NCBI GenBank assembly: GCA_009760855.2 | Contig: WPIO01000096.1 | Location: 781,001 to 845,000, forward strand | DNA length: 64,000 nucleotides | Reading direction: 5' to 3' | Origin: Cristatella mucedo | Lineage: Eukaryota > Bryozoa > Phylactolaemata > Cristatellidae | In this document: positions 25,431-36,657 of the stretch, in pieces | How positions within the stretch are numbered: the stretch's first letter is position 1 | Layout: each line of letters starts with the position of its first letter | Program-made: the position numbers and the translations under genes | Notes under the pieces: generated by a model | Seen by the model: only the letters and a program-made list of their open reading frames with translations | What the model was told of the DNA's origin: nothing | Databases searched by the model: none

Positions 25431-25676
25431 TCGTATCGCCCAGCTCAGCGACGAGCACCAAGAAAGGCACGACGTCTGCTTTTACGGATACCCCGGCGAC
25501 GAGTCTTCATCAATCAGCCAGTGCCAGCAGCGTCAGCTGGAAAGCAGCTAACGATAATTCAACGAATACTTCCGCCGCGAGTCATTCTCTATCGCATAAT
25601 ACCGCGAGCACCTTGGCGAATGCAGGCGCGGACGAGTCAACGACCTTCACCTCAAGTTCATATCAATCAGCTACTA
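25431..25676 (+). CDS. Ser/Thr-rich mucin-like exon B1
   Basis: The 246-nt exon has a GTTTTGCAG acceptor and a CTA|GTAAGT donor, phase 1 on both sides. The frame is open and Ser/Thr/Ala/Asn-rich (SSATSTKKGTTSAFTDTP, then NSTNTSAASHSLS). It is the first recognisable exon of the copy B tectonin gene. I could not find the signal-peptide exon with certainty. The secreted-protein exons at 21,857-22,321 end in the compatible phase and lie upstream on the same strand. N-S-T sequons and abundant Ser/Thr suggest glycosylation. Confidence 0.6.
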
Positions 25677-25749
25677 GTAAGTATCGATACTAGTACTAGT
25701 AAGTACCAATAGTTGCTATCAGCTGCTAGTGACACCAACGCTATTTCAG

Positions 25750-25950
25750 GTACTGAGGACTCAATTAATTCCACTGGAACGAGTTTGTCTACATCGGCCA
25801 GCAGCAGCACCGTCATTAGCAGCAGCAGCAGCAGCAGCAGCAGCAGCAGCAGCGACGGTGGTGGCATTAGTGGATCGTCCGAGGAAGCAACGACACTTGC
25901 ATCGAGCTACTTTCAATTTTCTACTGCTGGAAGTGGTAAAGTGTCTGCAG
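25750..25950 (+). CDS. Ser-rich exon B2 with a 12-residue polyserine run
   Basis: The 201-nt exon (67 codons), phase 1-1, lies between CTATTTCAG and a CTGCAG|GTACTC donor. It begins GTEDSINSTGTSL, contains an AGC run encoding 12 Ser, then DGGGISGSSEEATT and SSYFQFSTAGSGKVSA. A paralogous exon lies at 27,953 and a damaged one at 2,769. Spliced to B1, the junction codon becomes Ser. The repeat length differs between the two copy B exons (12 versus 20 Ser), as expected from slippage. Confidence 0.6.
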
Positions 25951-26629
25951 GTACTCTACTCGTACGCGTAATTTTAATTTTGCGCATCGGCAGCATTTTG
26001 AAAAGAAAATTCAGCTTGTAACTTTAATTAAGAAGGCTATCTAAATGCAACAGTTAAGCATGCTATTTCCACTAAGGACCAACTTCATAGGATTCTAATA
26101 GCAAGAGAAATCACTGAGACAGCAGCTATGATAATCAAGGTCTAAAGCCTAGTTTAGTTTTAGATAACGCAATTTATGTCCAGGAGTTTACTTGGACCTT
26201 GGCGGATCCGTAGCTCATTGTTGTATTTTAATGAAAGACAGCCAGCAAATAACTTTCAGCAACTTTATTTTAGAGTAAGCCGTCTCTATGTCAAAAAAAA
26301 TTGTGCTTACGCTCTGCTACGCGTAAGAAAACTCACTGCCGTTCGTAATCAGGAACTCGAACGCGCATCTTAGATGCGAGCCTTGAGCAACTTTTCTTCG
26401 ATTGGCGTTTTCGTAACGGTCACTGTTATCTAATCAATACAAGTCACCTAAAAATTGAGGCTGCCATATTTACTATTGACTTCCTCCCCGTGCTAGAGAG
26501 CGAGCTTGGGCGACTCCAAAACGCGCTGCGGACCTTCGCTACATCCTTACCTTATATACTGCAGTATTAATGCCAATAACCCGAAGGGGGCTACGAGCAT
26601 TCATACTTAGCATGTTTACCTAGAGTACG

Positions 26630-32935: not shown

Positions 32936-34250
32936 GTGAGTTCTAGACTTTGTGGGCATACGAAGGCATGCACAATCTCCAAAGGATTTGAGGTTCGTGT
33001 GAGGTTTGCGTAAACGGTTAGATTTACAAAAAGCAGATGGTACGATACTAAGCCTGGTGGAGGAGTAGATCTGATAGGTAGACTGGAGCCAAAGAATGAA
33101 GGAACCGTTGCGTCACTGGGAGCCAGTGCAGGTCGCCGATAAGTGGCGTGAAATGGAAACTGTGGCGCTACCGACAGACAAGCCTTGCTGCAGAGTTTTG
33201 CACATGCTGTAAGCGCCTGATTGCACTGGGTAGTCGAACAGCAAGTAGTGAGCTGCAGAAGTCATAACGGGATGTCACAAATGCATAGACCAATTTAGAT
33301 GTGGTATACCTGTCTAAGGAAGCCCGAATTTTAGCAAAGTTATGCAGCTGAAAGAAGACAAACTGTGGAGCTGACTTTGCCGTCTAATGAACTGTCACTT
33401 TGGAACAGGACACACAGATTTCGCGAAGATTTAACAGGAAATATGCTGGCAGATCCGATTTTGAGTGTCATGTTTTCCATTTTTGAATAACATTTGATTC
33501 TCTCATATCTGATAAGTTGGTTTTATTATCATTTAATTTAAGAAACTCGCTTGCCATTCATGTGTTGATGTCAGAAATACATGCGGCAAGGGAGATGAGA
33601 GCGTTCGGCGTGCTGGAGGGCAGGAAGGGGAGTAAAACCATGATGGCACACTAGGTTAGGCGGTTGCTTTCACGACCTCGGTCCCGAGGTCGTGGGTTCG
33701 ATTCCTGCAGTGGGCGATTCTTTATCGCCACTGCAAGCGGCGGTGATAGCTGTAAAGGCTCTTCTGTCGCTACTATACAAAAATAACTATAATAACTATA
33801 CAAAATGAGGCTGTTTAATCAGCACGGATTTATTTTTATTTACAGCTAAGGTTGTTACAACTAAGTGTCATCGGCATAGAAGTAAAATTCTAGATTATTT
33901 CTGGCAATCACATCGACAAGAGGGAGAGTATAAACCATGAAAATAACGGGACCAAGCGCATAGCCATGAGGTACCCCTTAAGAGGTTCCTTCAACAAGGA
34001 TCCTTGTCCGTTCACATCTAGACTCTGGTGTCTCCCACTGAGATGGTAGGACCCAAAACATTGCAGTGCAGTACATGTGGTGCCCAGGCGAAATGAAAGG
34101 AACTAAAGTGGGGAACTTGGCGATTGATAGTATCAAAAGCTGCCAAAATATGGAGCAAAACGAGCAGAGACAATTCGTTAGTTATCGAGACCTAAATCTG
34201 AATTGCTAATGGGGGTGTTCAACACGTGAAGCAACGCTGACTCTGCTGAT
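32936..34250 (-). mobile_element. Decayed CR1-like LINE carrying a nested SINE
   Basis: Minus strand. From 34,240 down to 32,940 the element runs through remnants of the AFDTI block, the GVPQGS-type block (near 33,970), a broken YADDTQL-type active-site block (near 33,870-33,890), the LDKDT..LVHAF block (33,260-33,330) and the LHWLP region (33,110-33,180). Many frameshifts are present. A SINE of family a lies at 33,640-33,830. The element sits in the intron between exons B3 and B4. Confidence 0.75.
33640..33830 (+). mobile_element. tRNA-derived SINE, family a, nested in a LINE
   Basis: TGATGGCACACTAGGTTAGGC (box A region), GGGTTCGATTCCTGC (box B), the CGACCTCGGTCCCGAGGTCG stem, and the tail AGGCTGTTTAATCAGC. 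Best-preserved head of the family in the window. It divides the LINE at 32,936-34,250. Confidence 0.8.
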
Positions 34251-35821
34251 GGATTAGCTTTAACGGATCCAGACCTTACTATTATTATTATTATTACTAT
34301 TACTGCTTGCTGCTCGCACTTCATGGCCTTCACTTTTGTGAATTCGAAGCCTTTGCCGTCGCTGGCAATACTTTTGTAGTTCCGCTGGAATTGGGTTAAT
34401 AGCCACTAAAGCTCTTCTGCTTCTATATAAAGAGATGATTGACTGAGAATAATCGAATGAGATAATTGAAGTAGCTACAATTTAGTTTAAATTTACTGGA
34501 TTCAGTCAAACGTGTCTAGCTACCGTTCCAATGGCAGGTTCGTAAAACTTACCTCTGAATGAGTTCAGAAAGTCTTCGATGAAATTTACGGCAATGGTTT
34601 CTAGCTGTAGCCTGGTTATATAAGTGCTTACTACCACATGATTTTGGTATGCTCGTGACAGCTCGATCCACGCATTGTCGTTGAAACCCACCCCTTAAGC
34701 ATAATTAAGCGTACATTTGCGTCAGTGCTGCCAGCAGGTTCTTATATTTTGAACCCTCGCCAATTTGGAATTATTATCACCATTATAAGTTAATTTCATC
34801 TGATTTCTCTATTTAACTTACAAAATGTGAAAGAAATTGTTTACTGAAATACCGGCAAGAATGCTCAGATCGTGATCCTTTTTTATGACTGCCTCCTTGC
34901 AAAGATTCATGCCCACCTGTTCGACATATACAGGGGAGGGGGTATTGTACAACGTCATGCAGTCCTACATTTAACGGGAGAACAATCCAAGAATCCGAAG
35001 AAGCTTCGAATGATATATATGCTATGCAAAAAATTACGGCATGCTGCCATTGACAGCACAGTACAATTTGAGGTATAGAATGAGAACTAAAAGTGACCTG
35101 CTTGTGGAGTGCACGCGCCGTTAAAGGGTTCATAGCGGGTAGAAGCATGAAAAATGATCCAATTACTCAAATGCTCTTATGATTTTCACTTTGGCTTGCA
35201 TCCCTGGAGTTCAAAGAAAATAAGTACAAAAAGTGTTTAAATTAATCGTTCCACGATTCCTAAATTTTAAGCAACAAAGTCCGAAACAAAGTCCGTACGC
35301 TTCTGAGGCATGAAAAGTAACACTCCTGTCAGCTTGAGCAATGCTCGTGATGGTTGCCAACGAAAGGAAAGTTGAAAACTGGAAATAATTACTTTTCTAG
35401 CAAATTGAAGGAGACGGCGACCCGCTCCCGAAGGACGGCCGACCGGTGCCGTTGCTCCAGTAGTGCCAGGACGTTTAGTTTGAATAAACAAATGACACGC
35501 AACAAAAGAACTAGTGGAACCGCGGCGGCGCGAACAGTAGCTTTTTAAAGGGATTTTTATGATTGCATCGGACAATTATGCATTATGTGCTTATATACTG
35601 TATGCGACATGGTTGGATCGTACAAAGCTTATTATGGGAACGAATCGTTTGCGCAGCTATGAAAGCTTACTGCATGTTTAGCAGTTTAGTGAACAGGCGT
35701 ATAGTATAGCGCCTCACTGGCTATTATATCGAAGCTTCTTACTTCAAACATCGGACTTTTTCCGATACTAAGGATTTCATGTTGGTTTTTAACGACATTT
35801 TCTTTAATGATTTTGTTGCAG

Positions 35822-36657
35822 GTCTCAATGTAAAGAAACTCACCAACTCTTCAATTAGTATGCTTTCGGTCTCAGCCGGATACGGAGGATTATGGGCTCT
35901 GGGACGAGATCAAAATGCTTACCACAGGTTCAACACTAGCGCAGACTCGTTGTCTGCGGGCACGGCGTGGATCAAAATGTCAGGAGCATCCAGCGTGACG
36001 GCAGTGTGCTCTGGAGTGGAGCGCGCTTACTGTATAAGCTCAATCAGTGTGGAGACCAATTACTTTTGGGACCTATCTCAGAATTCTGCGTGGTGGTCAT
36101 GGTACTCATCGCTGCTGACGACTTGGTCTTTGACGTCGTGGTCGTCTTTGTCATTGAAATCAACTTGCGCAGCCTACCAGATCCGCAGCTACCAATTCAG
36201 CAAGGCAAACGACACGAACTGCTACGGCCTGTCAATAGAGAATCACTTATTCGTGCTCAACGGATCTGCCACCTGTATGGATTTCACCACTGCAAGGTGC
36301 GGCTTGGAACAATGGACGGCCATTGCCTTCGGTCGATCTGGCCTGTGGTCTTTGGCCTTAAACGGCAGCTTGTTTTACTTGGATTCTTCTCGAAATGCAA
36401 AGCCTCGTTGTCCGGGCACGTGGTTACCTATTTCTGGAAACTTCACGAAGATAACAACGGCTGGAGACTCAGTCCTGGCTGTCGATCCAGGCGGCGTCGT
36501 TTTCTCTCGAAAGGAAATCAGTGCCTCGATACCGACCGGAAGCTCATGGCAATCGCTGAATGTGACCTTCACCACTGCCGACATCTCTCTTAGTCCGTTC
36601 GGTGTTGCATGGCTGGTGGATACTTTGGGCGACATTTACACTTTAACACATTATTAA
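35822..36657 (+). CDS. Tectonin beta-propeller lectin domain, final exon B4
   Basis: The exon starts after TTTTGTTGCAG in phase 1 and encodes about 278 residues to the stop. Tectonin-type repeats are visible: VSAGYGGLWALGRDQNAY with AWIKMSGAS; EQWTAIAFGRSGLWSLALNG; GTWLPISGNFTKITTAGDSV with LAVDPGGVVFSR; and SSWQSLNVTFTTADISLSPF with VAWLVDTLGDIYTLTHY. The W-x-x-I and G-x-W/V-x-V/L-x-x-x-G-x-I/V-Y pattern is typical of tectonin and fish-egg-lectin propellers, which bind sugars or bacterial surfaces. Between the first and later repeats is an unusual Trp/Ser-rich stretch (SAWWSWYSSLLTTWSLTSWS) and several Cys. With the preceding Ser/Thr-rich phase-1 exons it likely forms the C-terminal head of a secreted mucin-like lectin. 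A decayed paralogue lies at 15,898. Confidence 0.7.

Follow-up and report, generated by a model that had tools for sequence, protein, structure and literature searches.

Lectins of the fish-egg lectin/tachylectin-1 type are propellers without other modules, and in human tectonin repeats are found in hTectonin (Q7Z6L1), which we take to be TECPR1. The parts of the published descriptions that were available present fish-egg lectin and tachylectin-1 as tectonin repeats, horseshoe crab GBP as 6 Tectonin domains and nothing else, and hTectonin as 11 tectonin domains in two propellers (PMC2707011). According to the same partial sources, lipopolysaccharide (LPS) or bacterial sugars are the ligands of several tectonins, that of the horseshoe crab among them, a possible LPS-binding role is given for a sponge tectonin (PMC2707011, PMC3269628), and fish-egg lectins are present in the perivitelline fluid of eggs (PMC13079451). 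The locus described here, gene B of Cristatella mucedo, lies in a window of 64,000 nucleotides (C683:781,001–845,000; the window is the whole stretch of DNA that was analysed, and positions below are window positions unless a contig is named); the assembly searched comprised 572 Mb in 688 contigs. Gene B shares tectonin repeats with the carp fish-egg lectin (PDB 4ruq/4rus) and the tachylectin-1 type, but here the repeats form a phase 1 exon that ends a predicted protein with a PAN-like module and a Ser/Thr-rich stalk; it is hTectonin-like in its repeats and unlike hTectonin in domain number and its two propellers. Judged from the sequence, 21,857–36,657 (+) is probably one gene for a secreted PAN-like/stalk/tectonin protein, which would act as a bridge between glycans and matrix in defence or adhesion.

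Gene model and tectonin domain

The predicted gene B spans 21,857–36,657 on the forward strand in seven exons with introns all in phase 1, and the joined frame contains 806 residues and zero stops (signal peptide and junction, residues 1–21; PAN-like module, 22–104; stalk, 105–528; tectonin domain, 529–806). Exon 1 (21,857–21,917, +) carries the start codon and the predicted signal peptide (MPLTAAVFVILFVNSLTAA; hydropathy peak 3.54) and ends in a phase 1 GTAAGC donor; an in-frame TGA was read by eye 18 nt upstream. Exon 2 (22,070–22,321, +; phase 1-1), which is open and spliceable, encodes a PAN/apple-like cysteine module. The stalk is encoded by exon 3 (25,431–25,676, +; phase 1-1, Ser/Thr-rich), exon 4 (25,750–25,950, +; phase 1-1, Ser-rich with an AGC repeat, donor possibly at 25,936), exon 5 (27,953–28,177, +; a copy of exon 4 whose poly-Ser is longer, donor possibly at 28,163) and exon 6 (31,208–31,807, +; phase 1-1, long and Ser/Thr/Ala-rich). 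Exon 7 (35,822–36,657, +) encodes a tectonin (beta-propeller lectin-type) domain of 278 amino acids followed by the stop codon. A candidate polyadenylation signal was found at 36,812–36,817 (+; pattern A[AT]TAAA, consensus only), with others at 36,760 and 37,045.

The acceptors at 25,431, 25,750, 27,953, 31,208 and 35,822 are AG in 5/5 cases, the exons behind them are open and in phase 1, and ordinary donors are present at 25,677 (GTAAGT) and 31,808 (GTATGG). The five exons of the earlier note, described as open, joinable in one frame and flanked by consensus-like sites, were thus recovered as such; its coordinates were incomplete at the 5' end, since the signal-peptide and PAN-like exons had been missed and the predicted gene starts at 21,857. 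Secretion, also proposed there, agrees with the putative signal-peptide exon, and because no transmembrane-like stretch was found in the B product beyond the signal peptide (best 19-mer mean Kyte–Doolittle value 1.25), a secreted product is preferred. Exons 4 and 5 are duplicates (88% identity over 269 columns). Immediately downstream of exon 5, but not of exon 4, lies a repeat of some 400 bases (28,190–28,592), which is also present on C674 (88%) and was probably inserted later than the exon duplication.

Exon 7 matched Pfam Tectonin (PF19193) with 55.9 bits (E 5e-15, cut-off 30) and Hyd_WA (PF06462) with 36.7 bits (cut-off 21), in agreement with the earlier assignment of the last exon as tectonin-type. 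In PF19193 searches the C1, C2 and C5 paralogs described below scored 36.2–41 bits, above the cut-off, and all 5/5 open domains of the family, B included, were matched at E <= 10. Against PDB, B alone gave a weak match to carp fish-egg lectin 4ruq (E 0.009), and a profile of five family members matched 4ruq with E 5.9e-8 over 105 profile positions. Searched with the tectonin alignment for relatives, genome_contigs gave 19 pattern stretches and viral_contigs 22, 0 of which were confirmed in either set.

PAN–tectonin family

The family region examined comprised 284 kb (C674, 140 kb; C683, 144 kb) and contained seven tectonin exons, of which B, C1, C2, C3 and C5 are open and A and C4 decayed; a 28-residue tectonin fragment at C674:719,410–719,487, about 2 kb behind C3, was left out of the seven. 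For 7/7 tectonin exons a PAN-like exon was found upstream on the same strand, 7–21 kb away (that of C5 by profile only, E 1.8e-6), and the order from PAN to tectonin was kept in both orientations and in the two clusters (C683 and C674). Ser/Thr-rich phase 1-1 exons lie between the two in 5/7 copies (A, B, C1, C2 and C3); in C1, C2 and C3 the final Ser/Thr exon has a phase 1 donor, and a phase 1 start is seen in the tectonin exons of C1, C2, C3 and C5. The main argument for one gene is that the PAN–tectonin order is kept in paralogs 29–45% identical to B in exon 7 (4 open paralogs), and the earlier proposal that Ser-rich exons and tectonin belong together is supported by this comparison. The C-terminal place of the tectonin domain in that proposal also stood, but an N-terminal PAN/apple-like exon had to be added and the single gene proved to be part of an apparent family of at least 7 copies in two clusters, at least 2 of them decayed.

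The exon 2 module has 83 residues, and four Cys are invariant in 5/5 aligned paralog exons, with a fifth in B. Its cysteine spacing is common to PAN/apple secreted proteins (PF00024), from which it differs in scoring below the curated cut-off; it is therefore called PAN-like here and, being subthreshold, is not presented as a PAN member. Between B and copy A exon 2 is 91.7% identical and intron 1 82.6%. A PAN relative (L027, C277:1,685,501–1,686,500) has a profile E of 1.3e-21, which places it in the same family, and an apparent signal-peptide exon. It was left out of the full members of the family, since a tectonin was not found in 20.4 kb downstream; C277 was also without a tectonin among the genome-wide Pfam matches listed. 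With a PAN-to-tectonin distance of 20.6 kb in C3, a tectonin could lie slightly farther on than the 20.4 kb searched at C277. A weak PAN match with one stop was seen on C653 (E 0.29).

As a control for chance, phase 1-1 exons of at least 50 amino acids with at least 27% Ser+Thr were scanned for over 568 kb of strand, with thresholds chosen after the first exons were known. Fifteen exons were obtained, 12 within the gene spans of A, B and C1–C4 (94.4 kb together) and 3 in the remaining 473.6 kb (Fisher P 1.2e-7). Gene spans ran from the signal-peptide or PAN exon to the tectonin stop and were chosen by PAN and tectonin positions, not by Ser/Thr content; the C5 span was grouped with the background, its single hit being Arg-rich, and two exons of B (25,750 and 27,953) fall below the donor threshold of the scan.

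The stalk of B (424 amino acids) contains 45.3% Ser+Thr, no Cys (0/424) and 18 Pro (4.2%), and a share of its Ser comes from the AGC microsatellite. Mucin-type stalks have Pro-rich Pro/Thr/Ser (PTS) repeats, and the stalk of B is not Pro-rich. Length, Ser/Thr content and the lack of Cys resemble mucin-type stalks and the Pro content does not, so that the earlier term mucin-like, accurate as to Ser/Thr richness, appears to fit only loosely. For the stalk of B itself, a coding function is indicated by its open frame, by its splice sites and by exon 3, which is more similar to A (91.9% identity) than are the introns before it (81.1%) and after it (84.7%); exon 4 points in the opposite direction.

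Selective constraint was estimated as the ratio of non-synonymous to synonymous substitution (dN/dS) by NG86. Values were 0.28–0.54 for tectonin (4 pairs) and 0.39–0.58 for PAN (3 pairs), the ratios of B/C pairs being rough because dS there is 1.2–2.5, near saturation; the stalk exons of C1/C2 gave 0.55 and 0.29. An excess of third-position changes was found in the C1/C2 stalk (P 0.005 and 0.013) and in tectonin pairs (P 0.033, 0.0028 and 1e-4). From the C1/C2 stalk ratios and third-position excess it follows that between these two copies the stalk has been maintained as open protein, under loose constraint.

Copy A extends from about C683:780.4 kb to window position 16.7 kb. Its PAN exon (C683:780,584–780,835) lies just outside the window, and within the window are the equivalents of exon 3 (2,450–2,695, +), exon 4 (2,768–2,963, +; two candidate donors, both lost in the alignment) and exon 6 (11,437–12,036, +; nearly identical to B exon 6), followed by the decayed tectonin exon (15,904–16,722, +), in which each of the three frames is interrupted by stops. 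Between B and A, exon 6 has 99.0% identity, with flanks at 93–95%, and lies in a tract (11,238–12,245 against 31,005–32,016) of 97.2% identity over 1,012 columns; other segments are mostly at 69–92%, a range from which one stretch following the PAN exon (48% in the alignment) is excluded. The tract looks like the result of recent sequence exchange or gene conversion.

Proposed function and alternative explanations

If gene B is transcribed, in whichever tissue, its protein would be secreted via the signal peptide of exon 1, and the Ser/Thr-rich stalk would be O-glycosylated and extended, as in mucin-type spacers. The tectonin propeller at the stalk tip may bind glycans as its ligands (bacterial surface sugars or coat/mucus glycans), and the function of the PAN-like module may be to hold the opposite end to matrix or a partner protein, so that the product would bridge glycans and matrix in mucosal/coat defence or adhesion. 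No result discriminates among defence, adhesion and egg/mucus coating. A single phase 1 exon would here place the tectonin domain at the tip of a secreted protein with a stalk and several modules. If this is correct, a receptor- or coat-like architecture is added to a lectin family which the available parts of the literature describe as tectonin repeats, and the tandem family would permit testing how function depends on stalk length and on lectin divergence. A protein with PAN, Ser/Thr-rich and tectonin parts was not found among the papers listed from an open-access library, judged by title and start of abstract, which is in line with the earlier suggestion of an undescribed architecture; in its available text one review mentions 'tectonin' and 'apple domain', but in separate lists. 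The parts are individually known, and their combination looks uncommon.

Several results weigh against a single gene for a secreted PAN-like/stalk/tectonin protein. Exons 4 and 5 have weak donors whose position is ambiguous (GTACTC at 25,951/28,178 or GTAAAG at 25,936/28,163); both alternatives preserve phase 1 and differ by 5 residues, and the exon ends are uncertain by 15 bases. The signal peptides of the family were judged by eye and hydropathy only, and that of C5 is weak (hydropathy 1.68). Exon 4 is 74.9% identical between B and A, lower than the preceding intron (84.7%); exon 6 gave a B/A dN/dS of 1.8, on six changes; and third-position excess was absent in exons 3 and 6 of B/A (P 0.52 and 0.91) and not significant in the PAN pairs (P 0.056 and 0.13). 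No convincing Ser/Thr stalk exon was found in C5 or in the decayed C4, and neither tectonin nor a Ser/Thr-rich exon was found in the 20.4 kb downstream of the C277 PAN relative. Pfam PAN_1 (PF00024) scored 21.0, 19.5 and 20.3 bits in three paralogs against a cut-off of 21.4 and did not match exon 2 of B or of A; since B, A, C1, C2 and C3 supplied the sequences of the PAN profile, only C4, C277 and C5 count as independent hits. The single-sequence AlphaFold2 model of exon 7 had a predicted local distance difference test score (pLDDT) of 34.8, too low for a fold. In PAN/apple domains the core cysteines lie on and after a helix, and the model of the PAN exon placed a helix at residues 27–44 at a low mean pLDDT of 51.7. 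The PDB search with the PAN alignment returned no PAN protein among 18 matches up to E 10, all short and chance-like (trypsins, CadR and a BRAF/KSR1 chimera; best E 0.0015), which speaks either against the PAN assignment or for a weakness of the profile.

With the same gene model, the product could be chiefly structural, as a glue, an egg coat or a mucus polymer, its tectonin domain crosslinking self glycans instead of microbes, a role that we consider a genuine possibility though short of an even chance. The Ser/Thr-rich stalk with low Pro and variable poly-Ser would suit it, as would the presence of fish-egg lectins in egg perivitelline fluid, taken from the available part of the source (PMC13079451); described tectonins, again from partial texts, mostly bind microbial sugars, and nothing separates this role from defence. 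It is more doubtful that the copies form a lineage-specific, fast-evolving recognition family with a diversifying stalk and a constrained lectin tip, serving as variable long-reach glycan receptors (defence, gamete/self recognition); the stalk would then have been diversified by tandem duplication, local sequence exchange, exon duplication and change of microsatellite length.

Decay of B in the manner of A, leaving a relic without a working protein, seems unlikely. The decayed state of A and C4 would be in keeping with it, as would the weak donors of exons 4 and 5, the poly-Ser expansion and the dispersed repeats in the introns of B, but B has open frames and AG/GT sites in all seven exons, and dN/dS is below 1 for the B tectonin against C1, C2 and C3 (0.28–0.37), pairs from which a present-day constraint cannot be read. 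Quite improbable is that exon 7 ends a separate short gene of the fish-egg-lectin type and the Ser/Thr exons come from another, mucin-like gene, for although the same genome has a one-frame secreted-type tectonin (L030, C676), the B tectonin exon starts at a phase 1 acceptor without its own signal peptide, the phase 1 donors of the PAN exons in B and A require a downstream exon, and seven PAN/tectonin pairs keep constant order and strand in two clusters.

Other tectonins and neighbouring features

Genome-wide, Pfam Tectonin matched at least 32 stretches on C676, C77, C16, C59, C683 and C674 (best 85.3 bits, on C676/C77), a lower bound that misses A, C3 and C4; in 14 control genomes matches were found in 0/14. 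L030 on C676 contains a predicted signal peptide and propeller in a single open frame of 317 codons and looks like a free secreted tectonin of the fish-egg-lectin plan; it shares the Pfam Tectonin match with gene B and differs from it in having no stalk and one frame. L029 on C77, also a Pfam Tectonin match, resembles L030, its frame extending past the examined stretch. The stalked plan would thus coexist with free-type tectonins in the same genome. Further tectonin clusters were seen at C676 1.48–1.78 Mb and C16 466–683 kb.

Rfam and tRNA scans of the window gave no matches. On the reverse strand a gene piece of the TMEM70/TMEM186/TMEM223 family (PF06979, 28.1 bits) was found at 51,213–52,025 and a reverse transcriptase fragment (PF00078, 32.6 bits) at 7,886–8,491; on the forward strand a KLRAQ-domain gene piece (PF10205, 58.9 bits), presumably PPP1R21, lies at 60,900–61,385. 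The TMEM70/TMEM186/TMEM223 and KLRAQ pieces were taken as signs of animal DNA. A Leu/Ser/Cys/Ala-rich stretch at 57,503–58,671, open in 3/3 forward frames, is probably a simple-repeat array. A dispersed repeat family with many copies on C683 and C674 is represented near 6.1–7.2, 17.3–17.9, 49.6–50.1 and 59.7–60.6 kb.

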